A stretch of 64,000 nucleotides of DNA, taken from NCBI RefSeq assembly GCF_033115175.1, contig NC_084828.1:96535388-96599387 (forward strand). The letters are read 5' to 3'. Positions 1-12,008 of the stretch are shown here, piece after piece (position 1 is the first letter of the stretch; every line of letters starts with the position of its first letter). Source of the stretch: Lepus europaeus (Eukaryota > Chordata > Mammalia > Lagomorpha > Leporidae). The translations under genes and the position numbers were made by a program. Below the pieces are notes generated by a model. That model made no database searches. It saw nothing but the letters and a program-made list of their open reading frames with translations, and was not told the DNA's origin.

Positions 1-724
1 AGGAGTGCACTAGTCCCAGGAATGGTTTCCCACGGCCACAGTGCTGGTGGTATCAGTCACAGTTATCGGCTGTGACGGCAGCTGTGGTGTCAGTGAGGAC
101 GCCAGTAGTAGATTATTGCAGCATAGAACACACAATACGGTGGTGCACACACAGAATCCAGTGTATCACGTGGGGCACCTGCAGGAGTCGGTGCCAACTC
201 GTTGACTTGTCATGTGAGTATTTCTTACTATCAATTTTAAGGGAGATCAGATGGTAGGCTCCTCTGACCAGCGAATTTTTCTCCCATTTAAGAAGCCAAA
301 GTATAGTCAGAAGGGTATTGTTGAGCATGGAATTAGAGCAATGGAGTTCACTGTATGATTAAAATGTTTAACTCCATCTGCCTTGAAGCAACTACTGCCT
401 TGTAGGGTGAGGCGAGCCTGTGAGCAGGTCCTTCCCCCCACCGACAGCACTCTGATGGAAAGAGGTGGGCCTCTCCTGTCTGTTTCTGTGGGTTGGTTTT
501 TCTTTCTGCTATATTCATACATTCCATCTGGTTGCACGCAAATTCTCCATTGCTGACTCTGCTGTCTCTGTTCTGATTCACTAGGGGTTCATGTGACTGA
601 ATGTCTCAGAGAGCAATTTCACTTCACTTACTCCTAAAGTTTTTTGTTGGTGCATCTCTGTAGCCCCCAGCCATCAACACTAGCTCCTACCAACTCTGTC
701 CCCAGTGATTGAAAATAACTGAAG
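1..724 (+). other. LAMP3 intron, no repeat or exon recognised
   Basis: Single-copy-looking sequence with stop codons in all frames over any length that matters. No LAMP3 exon block, splice-bounded ORF or known repeat was seen. Confidence 0.6.
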
Positions 725-1080
725 AGGGTTGGGTGTCTGGCCTAGTAGTTAAGACTCAGCTGAGATGCTGGCATCCTACATTGGAGCACGTGGGGTCCAT
801 TCCTGGTTCCAGCTCCTGATTCCAGCTTTTTGCCAACACAGACTTGGAGGCAGTGGTAATGGCTCAAGTAATGGGGTTCCTGCCACCCATGTGGGAGACC
901 TGGGTTGAGTTCCCAGTTCCTGGCTTTGGCCGCAGCCCAGCCCCTGGCCATTGTGGGCCTTTGAGGAGTGACTGGGAGCATGCACACTCTCTGTGTCCTT
1001 CTCTCTCTTTCCCTCCTCTCTTTTTCTCCTCCCCCCCACCCCGCCATCCCTCAAACAAAAATAAAATAAAATATAAAACA
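725..1080 (+). mobile_element. CSINE, divergent long subtype
   Basis: Head GGTTGGGTGTCTGGCCTAGTAG, internal CCATGTGGGAGACCTGGGTTGAGTTCC, CT-rich stretch, then (AAAAT)n tail. The GTTGAGTTCC and TTTGGCCGCAGCCC variants mark an older CSINE subtype. Confidence 0.85.
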
Positions 1081-1082
1081 AC

Positions 1083-1391
1083 TGGGGTTTGGAGTTGTGG
1101 TGCAGCAGGTTCAGCCATCACTTGGGGAGGCTAGCATCCCATATATGAGTGCAGGTTCAAGTCCCAGCTTCTACCTAATGTACAGGGGAAGGCTGTGGGT
1201 GGTGGGTCAAGTGCTTGGTTCCTGATCCCATGTGGGAGACCTGGATGGAGCTCTTGGCTCCTGGCAGCAGCCTGTCCCAGCCCTGGCTGTTGTGGCCATT
1301 TGGAGAGTGAACCAGTCGATGGAAGATCTCTCTCTCTCTCTCACTCTCTCTCTCTTTGTCACTCTGCCTTTCAAATAAATAAGTAAATATA
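1083..1391 (+). mobile_element. CSINE inserted just after the tail of the previous one
   Basis: Head GGGGTTTGGAGTTGTGGTGCAGCAG, body with CATGTGGGAGACCTGGATGG, (TC)n and tail CAAATAAATAAGTAAAT. It sits 2-3 nt after the A-rich tail of the copy at 725. Confidence 0.87.
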
Positions 1392-1633
1392 CCTACATCT
1401 ATACAACAGCTGAAGGAAACATGCCCCAGAGTTTTCACCGCAGTATTCTCCTGTCCACTCCAAACACTACCTGGAGGTCTCTGACAGCACGCAGTGTCTC
1501 CCTGGGGAGAAGGTGGCTGCCCCCGCAGAGAGCCCCGTGGAAGGAGGGCTTTTCACTGCCCTGGGCAGCCCGGCAGCAGTGGGAACGTGACAGATGGCTG
1601 TGTGGATCCTCATGCCTCACTGTTTCTTCTCAG

Positions 1634-1801
1634 AGAAAACATACCAAGGGATGAAGAGTGCCGTGGTGTTCGAGACGCTGATCGGGCATTCCTTCAAGTG
1701 TGTGAGTGAACAGAGCCTCCAGCTGTCGCCCCTGCTCCAGCTGAGAACCACCAACGTCCAACTCCAGGCCTTCGATTTTGAAGGGGACCGCTTTGGAAAT
1801 G
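1634..1801 (+). CDS. LAMP3: LAMP3 penultimate coding exon (end of LAMP lumenal domain)
   Basis: The exon is 168 nt, phase 1 to phase 1. It follows a pyrimidine-rich acceptor (TGTTTCTTCTCAG) and ends at a strong donor (ATG|GTAAGT). It encodes 55 full codons, read from AAA at 1636, plus a split codon at each end. The single cysteine in FKCVSEQ is expected, by LAMP family structure, to form the last disulfide with the cysteine in the DEC motif that opens the terminal exon. The segment TTNVQLQAFDFEGDRFGN is the typical pre-membrane LAMP3 stretch. No upstream LAMP3 exon was recognised in 1-1633, so the window opens within the preceding intron. Confidence 0.93.
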
Positions 1802-4800
1802 GTAAGTCGAGGGTGCATCAGGTCAGAAAAGCAAACTTTGGGGACTCAGGGACAGGTTCAAGGTGTGTTCGGTCAGGGGCAAGAATCCCCGTGAGCTTCC
1901 CGGCAACATATATTCCACATGGTTCTTAGGGCCGAGTTTCTCTGGCCACCTCTCCCTCCCACCCCAAAACCACCAGACACCTGCACCCATGCATGCCCAC
2001 AGCTCGCCTGCAGCAGGGGACATCTCCCCTGTGGGACCGACACACACATTCTCACTCATAGAAACACCCACCCTGCCTCGGACCAGCACAGAGCACAGTC
2101 CCCAGTCTCCCCGGGACAAGCTCCCAGACCTGGTAACACTCAAGCATGCTTGGAAAACAAAGATCCCGAGTATCCGTGATGTCAGAATGGACCCTCCCCA
2201 GCCACAGAGGGCAGAGAGCCAAGTGTGGTCGTTCAAGATGGGGACCAACGTGACCCGCTCTGCTTGGTTCCGAGCTGCTTTTTCTTAGTGTAGAGTTCAT
2301 CGCCTTCTGATTTCTGCTCTGAGTTCCTACTGCCACACTCAGAAGGAAACTGGGCTTTGGCGGAGCGCCAGGGATGGTCCAGGGTGACTTTCCAGAAAAG
2401 TCCTTGTCTCCCTGCCGGGCAGTCAGTGTTGGCTGGGTTTCTCCGTGTGATTCTTTTCTACATACCAAGTCATGGACGTCAGTCTCTGTGACACCCTCTT
2501 GTAAGAACCCAATCTGTTATAAGTTCTCGAGGATCAAAACCAGATTTAGCTTGAGGTGTAGTTGATTTGCTTTGAGTTCCGTGATAAAGCAAGAGGCAGG
2601 TGTAGCGGAAAATGTTTCCTTAGTGCCAAGTGTTTCAGGAAGGAAGCACTTGGGCGCTGCTCGCCTTGGGCCCCCTGATTTCCCTAGGACTTTTCTGAGT
2701 CTTGCAGCCTCTGCTTTCGGCCTGCACCTTTCTCATAGGGGCGAAGATTCAATATGAAAGCTGGCTAGTAGGCATAGTCCCACTCTGTCTCTACCCTCAA
2801 AACGTCTCAGGTTGGGAAAGGGTTATTTTTACAATCCACTGGGAAGCTTTGGAAAGCCTCCGAAACCAACGATGGGATCTCGGCATCAGGTGTGCACCTG
2901 CTCTTCTTGCTGTCGGCACCGCCGAGAAGCAGCGAGTGAGCAGGTCCGGGAGCTCACTGGGCACACGTGGCCTGCCCTCAGCGGTGCTCACAGGGAGATG
3001 CAAGCAAGCTCCGCCTTCACCGGTCGTCGGGGCACAGCGCCCCAACACAGGCTTCCCGGCTGTCCCGCCTCCTCCGCACAAAGCCCTCCGAAAGATTTCT
3101 CTTGTTCACTCCTCATCCATGGCGTCAGCTCAAGCCCCTGTGCAGAGCCTTTGCGCTTTAGATTTCACTCACATTGCTCAAATGTGAAGACGTACGTCAT
3201 TCCGTAAATAGCAGTTGCTTCCAGAGGGAAGAGATGGGGGCCGGGAGCACGTCACTCTACCACGTGGTGTTAGGAAGACGCCAGCGGAAAGCGTGGGTAA
3301 CACTGCGTTGGGTGGCGAGACGGGGGTGCAGAGAATCCTGACGGGCGGGTGACATTTAAACAGGGGCTCGAGGGACCAGGGAGGAGTGAGCCAACGTGAG
3401 AGCTCAGCCTTGTCGCGGAGACTGTCCCCAGCTGTGGACTGCTGCCTTTCCATCTCCCCAAATCCTGGAGCCTGCGGAAGGTTTTCTTTAGCCTTCCTTG
3501 CCTTTCGCTGGCCAAGCCGCCCTTCGGAAAAGCACCAGGTTTGAGGAGCCCGCCTGGGCTCGGCGGCTCTGCGCAGGACCAGTCTGTCTCCGCAGAGGCG
3601 TACCTGGGCTGCGCCCACCACCTCTGAGCCCAGACTCGGATTTCCTTCCCAGCAGCGCCCCCTGCCCCAGACCCGCGGAGTCCTCATTCCTCCGGCGTGC
3701 GGTCTGGGGTCCGCCCCTGAATGGCCTCCCTCAGGAACCACCAGCGCCACCCATTTCAGACCCACGGGAAGGCGACCCTTTCTCCTCCCCGTCTTCAGCT
3801 CCCTGTTGAGTGAGGCAGCAGGTGGGAGGCCCGGGCGCTCCGGCTCCCCCTCGGTGTCCTGGCCTGGGAAGCTGAGGCAGACAGGGGCGGTGCCAGGCGC
3901 AGCATTTGGGGCCGGCCTGTAACACCTGTTACTCTGACTTCAATTACAGCGGATGAATGCTTCCGTGACAGAAACAGGAGAGAAATCCCCGTGGCTATCG
4001 GCCTGAGTTTCACGGCTTTGCTGGTCATTTTGCTAACGGCGTGCCTGGTGGCCAGAAAGAGGCCCAGTAGAGGATATGAACGCATGTAGAGACCTGCCTT
4101 CAGACGCAGCAAGGTCCAGGCGCTGGGGAACCTGCGCCCCCCCACCCCCAGGCCCTTGGGGAGCCCTCAGTTTCCGCCCCACGGCTCCTCTGCCGGCTCT
4201 GGCGAGGCCAGCGCCACCCCCCCCCCCCCCCCCCGCCTTTGGCTTGGACACCATAGTCCACACCTAAGTCAGACCGGCTGACTTCTAGAATTAGGGAGCA
4301 AGAGGCACACACGTGAATGAGAAGGAGAAAGCAAAATCCCAAAGTGAAATTATTGCAGAGGACATTTTCAAGTTGCGTTGATTTTTCATATACATTTTAA
4401 AGAATCTACTCTTCTGGTTTCTTTTAAATAACACTTTTTAAAAAAGCAATCCCTTTCAAAATAGATTATAAAGTGAGTTTAAACTCTTGAGTTTTACTCC
4501 AATTTTTGGGGGGGGGGTAGGAAAAGAAAGGACATCTTTACTTAGCATTTTCTTTTTCCCAGAAACCTTTTATTTAAGGAGTACAAACTATACATTTCAT
4601 AATTACAAGTTTAGGAACATGGTGATTACTGCAATTTTGATTTACTTACATTGTAGATGCTCTTCATATGGTAGGTTTTTTTGTAATAAAGGACATAGTG
4701 TACCCTATGATAATGTATTATTAGTTAAAAAAGAAAAGTCTTAGGGAGCTGCCTCATTTCACTTCCTAAATGGGAAACACATACGAAAGATCTTGGCAAA

Positions 4801-7800
4801 CAAAACAGATTCAATAGATGTTAGGTCTCCAATTCCTTCTGTTTTATTTGTCGTCTGTCTTATGAACACGTCCTCCTGGTGTGTCTCCGTTTTTCTTGGC
4901 TACTATCCTGTCCTTGTCAGTTTATTCATTTGGGCCATGGCAGGAGAGCAGGCAGGTGGGAAACGGGGAGCAGGAGGCAGACCTGCCTGGGGGAGGCTGA
5001 GTACAACCGGCTTTGTTTTTTAGCAAACAGTCACACAAAATTGCTACACCAGAAAGCTCCTGAGTGGGAGTGATGGGTAAAGGAGGACAAAAAACTATTA
5101 AAATACAGCTGGGGATGTTATTTTTCATTTTCTGTTGCACTGACAGTTTCGTTTGGGGCTTTTGTGAGAAAAGGGAAAATAATGGATTTCTAGAAATTCT
5201 TAGCTGATTTTATGACCAGGAAGTTTTCTGGGTGGTTGTTGTTCTACATTTTCCAGAGGTGCCACTCATTTTTAATAGGAAGTTTATGAAATTTAGCAAC
5301 ATCTCTAACTATTGCTTATCTAGGAAGAGTACTGGCTCCCCCCCACACCCCGAGGTATTCTAGTTCTCCCCCACTTTCTTGGAAGTGAGGGGGTGGAGAG
5401 GGCATAGGGCACTTTTAAGAGAACATTAAGAGCCCCTTAAGACGCGTGGAGTGTCAGGAAATGGCCCCCCTTAAAGCAGGAGAGGTTGATGAGAACCTGA
5501 GGCCTGAGGTCGAGTGATCCAGCCTTAGCCAAGGCGTGGCTGCGGAGAGAGGCAGCCTCTTCCTCCCCTTCAGGCAGCACCTGCTCCGCACTCTCAGGTG
5601 CCCAAGGTGAAGGGCACTGGAAGAGCTTTGTAGTGCCCAGCGCAAGGTGTTTATTTGCTGTGCTGCTGACCATGTGCCCCAGAAAGGTGCGTTTCCAATC
5701 TGTGGAAATGCCTCCCACAGCAGAGAAACGAACAGGCAGAACTTAAGAGGAGGGGGCTGGAGGTTCGTGGAGCAGCAGCCCCCACCCTCAGTTCCAGTTT
5801 CCTGCTAATGTGCCTCCTGAGAGGCAGCAGCTGATGGCCCAGGTCGCTGGCCCTGCCACCCACAGAGTAGACCTGGGTTGAGTTCCTGGTTCCTGGCTCT
5901 GGCCCAGCCCAGTCGTAGCCATGGCAGGCATTTGGGGGAGTGAACTAGCAGATGGGAGACCTTTCTGTCTTTGTCTATCTCTCCTTCTTTCTATTCCTCT
6001 CAAATAAATAAAATACATAATTTTTTTTTAAAAGTGGGGGCCGGTACTGTGGCATAGTTTGTAAAGCCGCTGCCTGTGGCGCTGGCATCTCATATGGGCA
6101 CTGGTTCTAGTCCCGGCTGCTCCACTTCTGATCCAGCTCTCTGCTATTGCCTGGGAAAGCAGTAGAGGATGGCCCAAGTCCTTGGGCCCCTGCACCTGTG
6201 TGGGAGACCCAGAAGAAGCTCCTGGCTCCTGGCTTTGGATCAGCACAGCTGTGGCCATTGCAGTAATTTGGGGAGTGCACCAGCAGATGGGAGACCTCTT
6301 TCTCTGTGTTTCCTTCTCTCTGTCTGTAACTCTGCATTTCAAATAAATAAAATAATTCTTTAAAAAAGTGAAGTGAAGAGTAAAGGGATAGACGGTTCAT
6401 TTTAATTTTCCTAACATCTTGAATGAGTTCTTTTGGGTGACCGCTACTGCCTAGGCCCTGGTTATCTAAACCACCACCTCTAATACCAACTGTTCTTTTT
6501 TTTTTTTTTTTAAAGATTTATTTATTTATTTGAAAGGCAGAGTTATACACAGAGAAAGAGAGAGGCAGATCCAGAGAGACAGAGAGATCTTCCATCTGCT
6601 GGTTCACTCCCCAAATGGCCACAACAGCTGCAGCTGAGCCCATCTGAAGCCAGGAACTAGGAGCTTCTTCTGGGTCTCCCACATGGGTGCAGGGTCCCAG
6701 GTACTTTGGCCATCTTCTACTGCTTTCCCAGGCCATCAGCAGAGAGCTGGCTCAGAAGTGGATCAGCGGGACTTGAGCCGGCACACCCATATGGGATGCT
6801 GGCACTGCAGGCGGTGGCTTTACCCACTATGTCACGGCGCCGGCCCCATCATCTGTTCTTAATCCAGTGATGAAGACCGACGATTTCATCGGAAAGGGCA
6901 GTGAAGAAATGCTCAGGTGCATTGTCCACTTGCATTGTCCCACTTTGTGCAGGGGAGAATGGAAGGCGACAGAGCCAGGCTTCTCGTCCTGCCTCCCCCT
7001 CTCCCCACCACAAATATCCACCCCAAGAAGCCTATAAGGGAAGAAATTCTGTGAGCTTGTGCTTGGCTTCCTAAACCTAGAGAGAGAAAAGGAATGGGTT
7101 TCTCTGTCTTCCTTTCTAACCTAGGAGGCGCACATGGTTCCCAGGAGGTCTAGGAATGGTGAGCACAGGAACTGAGGCCACTGAACTAGGGGACTAGTCC
7201 CAAACCCAGGGAGAGCTCCAGGCTGCAGCCATCTCCAGGCTACAGTAAGAGGTAGAATCCAAGGTCTAGCTTAAAGGAAACCTTAACGGGTCGCAGGTGC
7301 AATGGGCAGAAAGACCGTAGGAAACTCCATTTCTGCACTGACATGCATGAGCACGAGGGAAACAAGTCGAACGGCCACTTTGCAGAACTACGGCAGCCAA
7401 GGCCCGCGCAGTAAATCGCAGTTAATCAGAGGAGGGAGGGTGTACTAATTTTCGAGGCCTGTCCTAACCAGGCACCACGGACTGTTGCCCTAACAACACC
7501 TGGACGCCTCCAGCAGCAGACATCTGTGCTCTCCTAGTTCAGGAGGCTCGAAGGCCAAGGGCAAGGTGTTGGCAATGTCGGGGGCCCCGGAGGCCTCTCT
7601 CCATGGCTGCGGGTGGCCTGCATCCTCACGTGGCCTTCCTCTGCCTATTCTGTCTCCAAACAGCCTCTTCTTAGAAGGACAGCACTCCTGCTGGGTTAAT
7701 GGCCTCCTTAGAGACCTGCAGCCCTGATAGGGTCATGTTCTGTGGTCCTTTGGTTAGGGCTTGAACAAAGGAATGGCAGAGGAGACACAGTTGTTTTCCT

Positions 7801-9950
7801 TCTATGAAATTCAACTAAGATCCAAATCAACAACTTATAAAATCACACTTGTCTGATCCTGTTTAAATGAAAGTACTTGTGTTTCTCTACTCGTTTATAA
7901 TTCCAAAGAAAGATGCCTGAAATAATGTTTGTGTTAGCAATGACAGTTTCTGGGTGCATGTTTTTGGGGTGACAGGCTCTTACTTTTCATTGGTGATTTT
8001 CTTGATTATTTTAATGATTTGTAATGTGCACAAGCTGCTCATTAAAAATAAAATGACTTTTCTTTAAGTATGCACATGAGTACACACACACACACACAGA
8101 AAGCAAATCCCTGGAAAGGGATGGTGGTTCATTGAAGTAGAGCTTCAGTGATTGAATAACAACTTCTCCTTATGTACTCATCTGCATTTTAAAAAAGGTT
8201 TAAACAATGTTAACTTAGACAATTGAATAATTTAACAAAATTACATGGAAGGTAAAAGTTGCCTTCTAGTTCCATCTCAGATTTTTGTGTATCTTTTCAC
8301 AGTGGACACACACACACACACACACGTATCAGTTTTGGTTCATGTGATGCTTCATGGATCTTGGAGAAATTTTTTCATATCACACTGGGACTACCACCTT
8401 CTTTCAGTGGCTGCATTGTATTCCATTGGATGAATACCATTTAAAATTTTCAAAAAACTTTTAATTTTTAATTCTCTCTTTAAATGGACATTATTGTAAA
8501 TGCCTTTTATAATTGTGTGGCCATGTCTTTAGTGTAAATTCCTAGAGCTGGAATAAATAGATATGTGCTTTCTATTTTTAATTTTGTGGCTTTTTTCCAA
8601 CTCATTTTAGTTTCTTGTCAAATTTCTTCCTTATTTAGAAAATTTAGATAATAACCAGAGTACCATGAACTCCACCAGATTCTCGTGAAAAGCAGCACCC
8701 CCCACCCCACCCGGGGAGACCAAGCACTTTCAGCTAATCTTAGCAATGTCTCCTGGTGGTTGGCTCTATAATTCTACAAAATTAAAAAACTTATCACACT
8801 ATTCCTTAACTTGCCAGCTTTAGACTTTCTGCTGTGGCACATAAAGTTTTTTGGTTACAGCCCTATTTTTGGTTAAATCAAAAGCTATATTATAACTAAG
8901 CAAATGTTGTCTGTTGCCAAATCAAGTAGTGTACTAACAGCTTTTTTTCCTGAAATCTCCCATCTCCCCTGACCTCCTCTGACACTTGTTTTTGGACCCC
9001 AGGTACATAGAATTGGGTTAATGGTGATTCTTGGTTCAGGATACAAATTCAGTATTGGACCATGCAAAGACCTTACACATACATCTTCTTATCTATCCCT
9101 GAAGAGAGAGAGTTAGGTCTGCACCTGCTTACCCTTCTCTCCCAAACATCCCCCACACTGAGTATTCTATCAAGTTCCCCCTCTCCCCAGGCCCCTGCAT
9201 CTTTCTCCAGTTTATTCAAGTTGTTTTTGTGAAATGCATGAAGTTTGTATTTCTTAAACAGAAGGTTTCGGGGTGGGGGGGTGACTAATTAGTGGCTGAT
9301 CCAATCAGTGACAGCTTTAAATGAATTAAGCAATTGCTCTCTAATGGAATAAAGAAAAACCAGTCTTGATAAGTTCTCCAATTTCATTTCTAAATCATTT
9401 GGTCTATTTTCTAACGTTAGCTAAAAGTAGCACAAGAAAGCGTCAGAAGCCCTGAAGAAGGTTTTAAAAGTGGGGAAGCATCACAGGTTGTTGAGAGATC
9501 ATCTGAAACCTTGTGGCAGAATTGGGCTCTAGGGTGGGCACCCTCCGCTCTGCAGGAGACATTGCCCGGGCTTCAGGAAAGGGGGCTAACGATTAGGGGA
9601 CAGTAAGTGCTGAGAAGATGAGGTTATTTTACCTACCTGCAGACACTCACTTATTGTCTACTTTATACATGAGGTAAATGAAGTGCCCAAGGTCACATCG
9701 TTTGCTGGAGTTGGAATTGAAAGTCGAGTCCGGAGCACTGGTTCTTCCAGCTCCAGCCCGCCTCCTGGTCTGTCATCGCCATCTCACCTGCATGTCGTGT
9801 TTGTTTTTTCTCTTAGTGGATGAGTGTTCGTCTGACTACACAGTTGTGCTGCCCATCATTGGGGCCGTCGTGGTGGGTCTCTGCCTTGTGGGTATGGGTG
9901 TCTATAGAATCCGCCTAAAGTGCCGAGCATCCGGATACCAGAGAATCTAA
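1634..9950 (+). CDS. LAMP3: LAMP3 gene, 3' coding part (two or three exons; 5' exons lie before the window)
   Basis: LAMP3 (DC-LAMP, CD208) is a type I glycoprotein of the lysosomal limiting membrane, known from mature dendritic cells and lung type II cells. The window holds the exon for the last part of the membrane-proximal LAMP domain (1634-1801) and the exon for the stalk cysteine, transmembrane helix and cytosolic tail (9817-9950). A second, alternative terminal exon lies between them (3950-4089). The lumenal exon shows the LAMP3 blocks TYQGMKSAVV, GHSFKCVSEQSLQLS and VQLQAFDFE. The canonical tail ends in GYQRI, a YXX-hydrophobic lysosomal sorting signal. The exon junctions are all phase 1, so either terminal exon can follow 1634-1801 in frame. 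MCCC1 follows on the same strand about 9 kb after the poly(A) site, the same order as human 3q27. Identity is confident; use of the middle exon is unproven. Confidence 0.93.
1802..3949 (+). other. LAMP3 intron between 1634 exon and alternative exon; GC-rich second half
   Basis: No SINE or LINE was recognised across 2.1 kb, unusual for this window. From about 2870 to 3930 the sequence is GC-rich with many CG dinucleotides. Open frames here on both strands (for example 3178-3765 minus) lack any family resemblance and look like GC-bias frames. Confidence 0.6.
3950..4089 (+). CDS. LAMP3: Candidate alternative terminal exon of LAMP3 (second transmembrane/tail exon)
   Basis: After an acceptor CAATTACAG with a branch-point-like CTGAC 18 nt upstream, the sequence is open in the same phase as the canonical last exon. 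The G that ends exon 1634-1801 completes GCG, followed by GAT GAA TGC (Ala-Asp-Glu-Cys), and the frame runs to TAG at 4087-4089. The 46 codons give the conserved DEC cysteine, a basic stub (RDRNRR), a hydrophobic span of about 22 residues beginning IPVAIGLSF, a stop-transfer ARKRPS, and a tail ending GYERM. GYxx(hydrophobic) at the extreme C terminus is the LAMP lysosomal signal. The canonical exon begins with the same Val/Ala-Asp-Glu-Cys and also ends in GY-x-R-hydrophobic, so the two look like duplicated, mutually exclusive exons, as in LAMP2. An AATAAA lies at 4685. It could instead be an unexpressed relic, but it has no stop or frameshift. Confidence 0.72.
4217..4234 (+). repeat. Poly(C) run of 18
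   Basis: An uninterrupted C18 tract, 128 nt after the stop of the alternative LAMP3 exon. It gives a G18 run on the minus strand with G-quadruplex potential. Its length in an assembly is error-prone. Confidence 0.9.
4561..4740 (-). mobile_element. Old L1 3'-end fragment
   Basis: AGAAACCTTTTATTTAAGGAGTACAAA... resembles the fragments at 32445 and 59308 (TTTAAGGAATACAAGCTTCATG; AAGTAATACAAACTTCATG), which belong to antisense L1 3' ends of lagomorph type. Divergent; borders approximate. Confidence 0.5.
4685..4690 (+). promoter_or_regulatory. Candidate poly(A) signal for the alternative LAMP3 exon
   Basis: AATAAA in TTGTAATAAAGG, about 600 nt after the TAG of the alternative exon. It is the first canonical hexamer downstream. 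Its use is not shown by the sequence. Confidence 0.4.
4741..5784 (+). other. LAMP3 intron, nothing recognised
   Basis: AT-rich then mixed sequence without recognised repeat or exon. A short C-rich stretch lies at 5338-5350. Confidence 0.5.
5785..6033 (+). mobile_element. 5'-truncated CSINE, older subtype
   Basis: It starts inside the element (CAGTTTCCTGCTAATGTGCC), then GTAGACCTGGGTTGAGTTCC, a CT stretch, CAAATAAATAAAATAC and T/A tail. It is followed after 2-3 nt by another + copy. Confidence 0.8.
6036..6366 (+). mobile_element. CSINE, full length
   Basis: GGGGCCGGTACTGTGGCATAG head, GGTTCTAGTCCCGGCTGC box-B region, GTGTGGGAGACCCAGAAG, tail CAAATAAATAAAATAATTC. Confidence 0.92.
6496..6847 (-). 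mobile_element. CSINE, full length
   Basis: Poly(T), TAAAGATTTATTTATTTATT, GAAAGGCAGAGTTATACACAG, ending CACGGCGCCGGCCCC: the exact reverse of the + copies. Confidence 0.92.
6848..9660 (+). other. LAMP3 intron, mostly unassigned
   Basis: No coding exon was seen. About 7440-7740 (TTCAGGAGGCTCGAAGGCCAAGG region) resembles a reiterated ancient mammalian repeat that I cannot name. (CA)n tracts occur near 8083 and 8307, and the end runs into a MIR relic. No lagomorph SINE lies in 2.8 kb. Confidence 0.45.
8083..8098 (+). repeat. (AC)8 microsatellite
   Basis: ACACACACACACACAC in LAMP3 intron. A second (AC)n lies at about 8307-8325. Confidence 0.85.
9610..9755 (-). mobile_element. MIR relic just upstream of the canonical LAMP3 last exon
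   Basis: TACATGAGGTAAATGAAGTGCCCAAGGTCACATCG..., then GGAGTTGGAATTGAAAGTCGAGTCC, matches the MIR core in reverse (AAGGTCACAC, GGATTCGAACC region). Ancient and diverged. Confidence 0.55.
9817..9950 (+). CDS. LAMP3: LAMP3 canonical last coding exon (transmembrane helix and GYQRI tail)
   Basis: The acceptor is TTGTTTTTTCTCTTAG. The exon starts with TG, which completes GTG (Val) with the G from the previous exon, then GAT GAG TGT (Asp-Glu-Cys), and runs to TAA at 9948-9950. The 44 residues include SSDYTVVLPIIGAVV, a membrane helix of about 24 residues, the cytosolic RIRLKCRAS, and the C-terminal GYQRI. Human LAMP3 has the same tail design. The cysteine after Asp-Glu should pair with the cysteine of the previous exon. 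The tyrosine motif recruits AP complexes for lysosomal delivery (family knowledge). Confidence 0.96.
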
Positions 9951-10678
9951 TTGGTGCCCAGGGGAGATGAAAATCGTGGCGTTTGGAGGATTCTTTCATC
10001 GTGTCCAGAATGGTGGGGGCTTCTCTGAGAGTGTGGGTCCCCCAGAACATGTAAACTCCGATCTGCCGCTGAAACCAATGAGCCATTTGTTATCGAAGTT
10101 CACGCGGCACATCAGCGATGTCCAGTTTGGGGTTTTTTCTCATTTTGTGAAAGATTTCGCGAGCTCTTTAAGAGGATTTTCCAGTTTCCTTCAGCTTAGT
10201 TTAACCCAAGTCCACATGTGACATATGTTGAATTAACAGCAGGTATGTGAAGTGGCGTGTGCTTCCAAACGATGTCCCAAAGTGTCCATTTTAATTAATC
10301 TGCACGAGAGTTCTATTTTCCCTTTGATCCTTTCCACTTCAAAATGTCTTCTCTGTGTCTGTCAGTTGGCCTTCAGTGCTTTTGCTGTGTTTTGTGTGAC
10401 GCACATACGATGCTGTGATACTTACCTCCTTTACCACTTTGAATGTTTTTTCTTTTTTTAAAAAAATTGTCAAAAAGAATAACATAACTCAGGTTGTGTA
10501 GGTTTTAATATGAAACTAACAAGGGGACCAGATCAGCTTCTGTTTCTTAGTGTGATGCCTCCTGCTCCAGATAAGAATTTGGTGGCTACAGATATCAGAA
10601 GTGAATCGTAAGCAAGAAACTAGCATCATGGCCCTTAATTACTGAACACATGTGTCCCAGACATTAGGCTAAGCAGCA

Positions 10679-10724
10679 TATATATGTATGTATATACATA
10701 CATACATATATATATATATATATC
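10679..10724 (+). repeat. TATG/TA microsatellite in the LAMP3 3' UTR
   Basis: Imperfect TATATGTATGTATATACATACATACATATATATA: short inverted TATG/CATA blocks that can fold on themselves in RNA. Confidence 0.8.
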
Positions 10725-10860
10725 TTATTTAATTCTCACAACTTACAGATGTGTGAACTTAGGCCTCAGGGATTGAAACCACTTACACATCACCCACCTA
10801 ACAGGTGGCAGAGCCAGAAGCGGAGCTCATGCTGGTCTGGTCCCAAGGTCTTTGGTCTTT
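10715..10860 (-). mobile_element. MIR relic in the LAMP3 3' UTR
   Basis: TTATTTAATTCTCACAACTTACAGATG, GGCCTCAGGGATTGAAACC and AACAGGTGGCAGAGCCAGAAG follow the reversed MIR core order. Diverged, so borders are rough. Confidence 0.6.
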
Positions 10861-11524
10861 TCAGCATACCAGGTTGTCTGCAGGAGCGATGGCACTAAGC
10901 ACTTCCTGAAGCCACAGCCCAGCATTTGCCCCATTTTCACAGCGGACATAGATTTATCCAGAGTCCTAAGACGCTGGCATAGATCAAAGGAGCACTTTGC
11001 AGATGGTAAAACAGCCTTTCTTTAGTAAGTCCTCCGCTCCCGTGAGGGATCCAGAGAGGGCTCTGCAGCACCTAAGCCCCGTTCTCATTTCTATGGGCTT
11101 GTTTAGCTGTGGCTTTAAAGATGAAACAATGGAGTAAACGTCTCGAAATATTTCAGTGAGTGCCTTCAAAAACAGAAATCTCACAGTTACATTTCTTTCT
11201 TGAAGCACCCTCCGCGCGCGCCACCTTGTGGTCGTGTGCTGCTCCTGCACGTTTATATCCCCAAGTTCTGATGCCGTTTGGGTCATTCCCCAGAGCAGCC
11301 TGACAGGAATTTTGGCCCTGCTGGGTTTTGCTGCTAAAGAAAGGAACTCAGTCAAGATTTCAGCAGAAAAGACCAGGTAACACTAGACTTCTTCAGTAAA
11401 GGAATAATTCTCGCCAACCTGGAGGACAGACTGACTTTCCTGAGGTGTTCCCCTATGAGGCAATAGGGTTGGGGAGATCCTGGCTTTAGTTTTAATAGAC
11501 TATGAACTGTACAAAAGTTTTTGT

Positions 11525-11530
11525 AATAAA
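11525..11530 (+). promoter_or_regulatory. LAMP3: Poly(A) signal of LAMP3
   Basis: AATAAA within TTGTAATAAAAATG, followed within 60 nt by T- and GT-rich sequence (TTTGTCTTTTGTTC). This places the LAMP3 transcript end near 11545-11555. Confidence 0.65.
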
Positions 11531-11670
11531 AATGTTGTGGAGATTCGTTCATGTCATTTCTTTCTTACGATTTGTCTTTTGTTCTACTGAAATTTTTGCT
11601 TCCAATCTCAGTGGTAAGCCTTTCTTACGAAGTTTGCTGCTTAACAAAGTCATCTTGCTGTAGAGAATTT

Positions 11671-12008
11671 ATTTTTTAAAGATTTATTTATTTATTTGAA
11701 AGTCAGAGTTACACAGAGAGAGGAGAGGCAGAGAGAGAGAGATAGAGAGGTCTTCCATCTGATGGTTCACTCCCCACATGGCCGCAATGGCCAGAGCTGT
11801 GCTGATCTGAAGCCAGGAGCCAGGAGCTTCTTCCGGGTCTCCCACACAGGTGCAGGGGCCCAAGGACTTGGGCTGTCTTCTACTGCTTTCCCAGGCCATA
11901 GCAGAGAGCTGGATTGGAAGTGGAGCAGCCGGGTCTCAAACTGGCGCCTATATGGGATGCCGGCACTTCAGGCCAGGGCATTAACCCCCTGTGCCACAGC
12001 GCCAGCCC
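11671..12008 (-). mobile_element. CSINE, full length
   Basis: TTAAAGATTTATTTATTTATT, GAAAGTCAGAGTTACACAGAG, then GCCAGGGCATTAACCCC and CAGCGCCAGCCCC. It lies about 120 nt past the LAMP3 poly(A) site. Confidence 0.92.

Follow-up and report, generated by a model that had tools for sequence, protein, structure and literature searches.

Introduction

The tails of LAMP2 have been linked with chaperone-mediated autophagy, macroautophagy and nucleic acid uptake, and LAMP3 (DC-LAMP) is widely used to mark mature dendritic cells and the lamellar bodies that store surfactant. According to two reports, LAMP2 is made as three splice forms that differ in their transmembrane and cytosolic regions and also in function (PMC9221867, PMC3409847), whereas the LAMP1 gene encodes a single transcript (PMC3409847, which also covers the part played by the LAMP domain's second disulfide). 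In Airedale Terriers, a recessive lethal lung disease occurs with LAMP3 p.E387K, a substitution adjoining the fourth conserved cysteine (PMC7082050). Mice with a frameshift in exon 2 are viable, strikingly unlike the dogs, in which the protein is still detected (PMC8259984).

Here we describe a second terminal exon of LAMP3 that encodes a membrane span and a tail ending in GYERM. This tail is already present in NCBI and UniProt as unnamed predicted LAMP3 isoforms, often 'isoform X1'; these entries share the YERM tail, but they are automatic models in which a tail switch is not described. A literature search, which mostly covered papers outside subscription, found none on a second LAMP3 tail, and there is no mention of one in the accessible parts of PMC3409847, PMC8259984, PMC9221867, PMC11026864 and PMC7082050.

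Organisation of the LAMP3 3' region

The window, by which we mean the whole 64 kb stretch of Lepus europaeus DNA that was analysed, starts with the 3' part of LAMP3 on the + strand (Table 1). Six MCCC1 matches follow 3' of LAMP3, in order and on the same strand (tblastn with a human query), so that this is the normal LAMP3 locus. The matches span 29894-57751 (+); between 48583 and 49235, two adjoining ones overlap in the query and are only 55-63% identical, perhaps concealing a short intron or a rearrangement. LAMP3 differs from the UniProt Oryctolagus entry (P0034) at 7 of 99 compared residues, and the last lumenal exon at 5 of 55, which would suit a leporid other than Oryctolagus or a divergent assembly.

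Table 1. Positions in the window of the features at the 3' end of LAMP3.
Feature	Position	Strand	Basis or remark
Last lumenal exon of LAMP3	1634..1801	+	Pfam PF01299, E 1.3e-12; ends with G of the split codon; common to both isoforms
5' splice site GTAAGT, common to both forms	GT 1802..1803	+	Sequence
3' splice site (AG) preceding the alternative last exon (ttacag/C)	3948..3949	+	Sequence
Alternative last exon, coding part, YERM/E-type tail	3950..4089	+	Sequence, spliced reading, same tail in therian LAMP3 proteins
Asp-Glu-Cys of the YERM exon, with the fourth conserved LAMP-domain cysteine	3952..3960	+	Alignment of E tails
Transmembrane segment, LAMP1/LAMP2 type, limits estimated	3985..4053	+	PF21222, LAMP1 profile match, hydropathy
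Predicted cytosolic tail of 11 residues, RKRPSRGYERM, with GYxx-hydrophobic signal	4054..4086	+	Sequence
Stop codon of the YERM exon	4087..4089	+	Sequence
AATAAA, candidate poly(A) signal	4685..4690	+	About 595 bases 3' of the YERM stop
Usual last exon, YQRI/Q-type tail	9817..9950	+	Sequence; type in 73/120 clusters among the matches listed

The original prediction placed an intact, splice-ready phase-1 exon in the interval that separates the last lumenal exon from the usual terminal one, and held that it re-creates every part of a LAMP C terminus. Both statements agree with our reading: the acceptor AG and the stop codon are in place, in-silico splicing from 1801 to 3950 gives the split codon G/CG in phase 1 and reads cleanly as FGN-ADECFRDRNRREIPVAIGLSFTALLVILLTACLVARKRPSRGYERM up to the stop, and the exon encodes ADEC, a membrane span, a basic stretch and then GYERM. 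Splicing from 1801 to 9817, with the split codon G/TG and again in phase 1, reads FGN-V-DEC...GYQRI. In the spliced reading, two same-phase terminal exons follow one LAMP3 donor, and the best 19-residue Kyte-Doolittle means of the two tails are 2.54 (YERM) and 2.56 (usual tail). We scanned the 64 kb in six frames for EC followed by 25-50 residues, GYxx[ILMFV] and a stop; there were two matches, namely the exons at 3950 and 9817. When profiles of both tails were compared with 2115 six-frame stretches of the window (at least 20 residues, stop to stop), no significant match to a third tail exon was found beyond these two.

Upstream of the YERM exon, TAAC at 3920-3923 is a plausible branch point candidate for its acceptor. 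Downstream, AATAAA occurs nine times between 4001 and 12500, and the motif at 4685 is no more than expected there; a long C run lies at 4217-4234, about 130 bases after the YERM stop, in the putative 3' UTR. Rfam at gathering thresholds gave no match in positions 1-12000 of the window, and a scan of viral contigs for another copy gave 58 pattern matches, with no relative among them.

Distribution of the two tails among mammals

We refer to YERM-type tails as E-type and to YQRI-type tails as Q-type. A protein search with the YERM tail only returned, among 48 candidates, 33 LAMP3 proteins at E <= 10, each with the LAMP domain PF01299 and 74-91% identical to the tail in the window. They come from macaque, marmoset, mouse lemur, marmot, horses, bats, bear, badger, yak, ibex, deer, camel, toothed whales, dugong, elephant, opossums and Tasmanian devil. 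So that sequences were not chosen by their tail, a second search used the opossum lumenal domain only. Among the 120 clusters listed of 125 hits, 73 were Q-type (counting P0111, which has a Q-type start and a divergent end and entered no pairwise comparison), 41 E-type and 6 other. In this database, which is clustered at 90%, only one tail per cluster is displayed and the other isoform may stay hidden, and most LAMP3 entries are predicted gene models.

Marsupials and placentals each have the two tails, and both are recorded in five species: Equus przewalskii, E. caballus, Monodon, Sarcophilus and Myotis brandtii. For three of the five (P0003/P0044, P0020/P0080 and P0075/P0076), the printed size of the source contig is equal for the two forms. 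The same tail in marsupial and placental LAMP3, together with the five two-tail species, supports the predicted LAMP2-like choice of membrane and tail exons. Among the matches listed, and with order labels that we assigned ourselves, the Q tail was found in 15 of 19 orders, the E tail in 12 and both in 8 (Primates, Rodentia, Lagomorpha, Chiroptera, Carnivora, Artiodactyla, Perissodactyla and Dasyuromorphia). No E tail was seen among the matches listed from Eulipotyphla (0/6), Diprotodontia (0/4), Macroscelidea and Afrosoricida (0/2 each), or Dermoptera, Cingulata and Tubulidentata (0/1 each), where clustering at 90% may hide isoforms. The YERM tail is also present in pika (P0108), which belongs to the second family of lagomorphs.

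Altogether 43 E tails were compared, 33 from the tail-similarity search, which favours conserved copies, and 10 from the tail-blind search only. The first residue is A, V or E in 43/43, as expected from a codon starting with G, which the shared donor and phase 1 demand. In five bat entries (P0024, P0063, P0076, P0113 and P0116, from Miniopterus, Pipistrellus, Myotis and Molossus) the YERM tail starts with VTA or VTV and has two extra residues. If this start corresponds to G/TT ACA G.G, the last six intron bases (TTACAG) would have become coding after a new AG six bases upstream, forming a tandem acceptor; this reading of the proteins, if right, would mean that the YERM acceptor itself is conserved, and the bat entries would offer a natural experiment on how the acceptor is chosen.

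The endings of six LAMP3 models correspond to neither tail, P0069 (pig), P0070 (fox), P0084 (orangutan), P0094 (Leopardus), P0097 (titi) and P0110 (horse), and may represent further last exons, read-through or prediction errors. The ending GRVFI is common to pig P0069 and sea lion P0090.

Relationship of the YERM tail to LAMP1 and LAMP2

Comparison of the 45-residue YERM frame with PDB gave matches to LAMP1 (E 3.5e-5) and LAMP2 (E 0.015). The alignment with the LAMP1 C terminus covers nearly the whole length of the tail, RKR...GY included, with 19 of 43 residues identical (44%). Pfam PF21222, the LAMP2 transmembrane segment, matches the YERM tail of the window at E 7.5e-4, but its 19.7 bits lie below the curated cut-off of 27.

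For profile comparisons we hand-chose 16 of 36 distinct E tails (alignment A1) and 16 of 54 distinct Q tails (A2), in each case with the tail of the window included. The E profile matched LAMP1 at E 1.4e-8 and LAMP2 at 0.0021, the next chains being aquaporins from 0.021, whereas the Q profile gave 1.4 and 0.073, respectively. Similarly, PF21222 at E <= 1 recognised 14/16 E tails (best 2.2e-6) vs 0/16 Q tails, and the mean pairwise score to LAMP1 was 95.9 for E tails (n=36) and 53.5 for Q tails (n=53). Because z-scores from composition shuffles overstate kinship between membrane segments, we used those obtained against the LAMPs only for the contrast between E and Q. Aligning the two tails with one another shows that they, too, are related (hhalign probability 92, 27% identity). 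By these comparisons the YERM frame is a real LAMP tail rather than a lookalike, and it is the more LAMP1-like of the two LAMP3 tails.

Within A1, the Cys of DEC, which directly follows the last lumenal exon and is predicted to complete the second LAMP-domain disulfide, is invariant (16/16) and its Glu is present in at least 90%; the proline is found in 16/16 rows and the first glycine in 15/16, while the second glycine position holds Gly in 11/16 and Ala in the YERM tail of the window. The usual LAMP3/DC-LAMP form, which shares the gene and the lumenal exon with the YERM form and has a related tail, differs in its membrane helix and in being less basic, with a mean of 3.0 basic residues in the last 11 (n=69) vs 4.6 in E tails (n=36). 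The residue after the signal Tyr is mostly Glu in E tails and is Gln in YQRI.

Conservation and losses

We compared both tails across 13 lineages, in 8 of which the E and Q tails come from two different species or genera. Over the 78 non-independent pairs, mean identity was 0.804 for E and 0.716 for Q, with the last 55 lumenal residues in between at 0.757, and E was better conserved than Q in 61 pairs and worse in 17. The gap is widest when Tasmanian devil is compared with five rows from placentals (two horses, narwhal, Myotis and the window): E tails are 72-87% identical and Q tails 45-59%. Placentals with both forms give a mixed picture: the tails are equal for horse-narwhal, Q is ahead for horse-Myotis and narwhal-Myotis, and E is ahead in the pairs with the window. 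As judged from protein sequences, the YERM tail is on average better conserved than the YQRI tail.

A GYxx-hydrophobic signal ends 40 of the 43 E tails, the exceptions being elephant, tamandua and one sea-lion model in which GYERI is followed by five more residues. The proposal that LAMP3 "has, or once had" a LAMP2-like switch is supported in its first half, and with this number of intact endings the second half is too weak. The Elephas tail (P0028) ends in GCEYT and that of Tamandua (P0122) in GRGRP; in both, the tyrosine signal is lost and the membrane span kept, and the two endings are possible lineage losses of lysosomal sorting for the YERM form.

Alternative explanations for the YERM exon

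We consider 3950-4089 to be a functional alternative last exon of LAMP3, with a probability of roughly 0.87. The alternative that survives best refines this explanation rather than opposing it: YERM would be the original and main therian tail and YQRI a divergent add-on, so that the labels canonical and alternative would be reversed. The closer profile matches of the E tails to LAMP1 and LAMP2, their recognition by PF21222, the higher LAMP1 pairwise scores and the identities between Tasmanian devil and placentals all speak for this order, and YERM may be the older, LAMP1-like tail. Against it, YQRI is commoner both among the listed clusters (73 vs 41) and by order label, and the ancestral tail state is unrooted, since the 120 listed clusters contain no monotreme, bird, reptile or fish LAMP3. 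We give such a reversal somewhat below even odds.

It is improbable that the YERM exon is instead a relic of an older switch, kept by descent, spliced at noise level and present in databases through gene prediction. Consistent with a relic, the YERM acceptor has the weaker pyrimidine tract (11/17 pyrimidines at -20..-4 vs 14/17 for the YQRI acceptor), and elephant and tamandua have lost the signal. Furthermore, all three LAMP3 entries on contigs of 1.4-2.9 kb coding 409-454 residues (P0039, P0066 and P0067), which on these sizes are probably spliced transcripts, carry the Q tail. However, an unused frame of 46 codons should not stay open and retain the identity found between Tasmanian devil and the five placental rows, nor keep its terminal signal in 40/43 copies, although the latter figure partly reflects selection by the search, as 33 of the 43 came from tail similarity.

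If the exon were a piece of LAMP1 or LAMP2 that had been inserted or retrocopied recently, this would account for the resemblance to the LAMP1 tail, but the exon is in the correct splice phase, and its 44% identity to LAMP1 compares with 74-91% to the LAMP3 tails of other mammals, marsupials included. This origin, which is contradicted by the occurrence of the same tail in LAMP3 proteins in both the tail-only and the tail-blind search, is very unlikely. A chance open frame resembling a tail, for which the shortness of the frame and the GC-rich intron could be cited, is hardly credible and is contradicted by the LAMP1 match in PDB and the E-profile match, the 33 LAMP3 proteins, the E-type clusters of the tail-blind search and a layout unique in 64 kb. 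On these comparisons the YERM exon is neither a chance frame nor a dead copy.

Discussion

LAMP3 probably comes in two forms, and the best reading of the sequences is a LAMP2-like tail switch common to therian mammals. We propose that the donor at 1801/1802 is spliced either to the proximal exon at 3950, which brings a stop and a 3' UTR of its own, or to the distal one at 9817, and that both transcripts are made. The products would be two type I membrane proteins that share their lumenal domain and differ in helix and tail, ending in RKRPSRGYERM or in ...GYQRI. Use of the proximal exon would need its acceptor and a poly(A) site, presumably its own, for which AATAAA at 4685 is a weak candidate. 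The likeness to LAMP2A, B and C lies in the combination of one lumenal domain with one of several last exons, each encoding a membrane span and a short tail; LAMP2 is another gene with three tails compared to two for LAMP3 in the window, and the E tail of LAMP3 scores higher with LAMP1 than with LAMP2A. As the LAMP2 forms differ in helix, tail and function, by analogy the two LAMP3 tails should differ in adaptor sorting, membrane partners or oligomerisation.

The second exon also bears on the Airedale Terrier variant, at CanFam3.1 chr34:16092728. Judging from the YERM form of bear (P0014) and the YQRI form of panda (P0096), the part common to the two forms extends to residue 384, and DEC has its Glu at 387. 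This numbering comes from carnivores related to the dog: the shared part ends at 384 in four of the models (bear, otter, sea lion and panda), at 383 in fox and at other positions elsewhere. Each last exon encodes its own Glu-Cys at 387, and therefore E387K can alter one isoform only, if the dog has both. In that case, the variant should fall within a single alternative exon and leave the second isoform unaffected, whereas the mouse exon 2 frameshift would remove both forms. When the published genotyping primers (PMC7082050) were compared with the window around both exons, one primer had p = 0.06 on the 3' side of the YERM exon and p = 0.05 on the 5' side of the YQRI exon; for its partner in the needed orientation, p was above 0.95 at both exons, a result that favours neither exon.

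We also put forward a more far-reaching scenario, more doubtful than the reversal of the two labels taken by itself, in which LAMP3 would be two-tailed throughout therians with YQRI derived, the older, LAMP1-like and strongly basic YERM form would do a separate job, and E387K in one terminal exon would disable one isoform only, bearing on the different outcome in dog and mouse. If YERM has such a job, it might involve, for example, another organelle route, oligomerisation via the LAMP1/2-type helix or LAMP2C-like handling of nucleic acids by the arginine-rich tail.

What appears new is a probable LAMP2-style tail switch in a second LAMP gene, where the tail so far overlooked is, on average, better conserved than the usual one and also closer to LAMP1. 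Given the conserved second tail, the switch known from LAMP2 would extend to LAMP3, and constructs with the YQRI end would test one of two LAMP3 forms. The second LAMP3 tail would furthermore give a direct test of the dog lung disease, and a reading of E387K as affecting one isoform bears on why dogs with the variant die and mice with the exon 2 frameshift do not.
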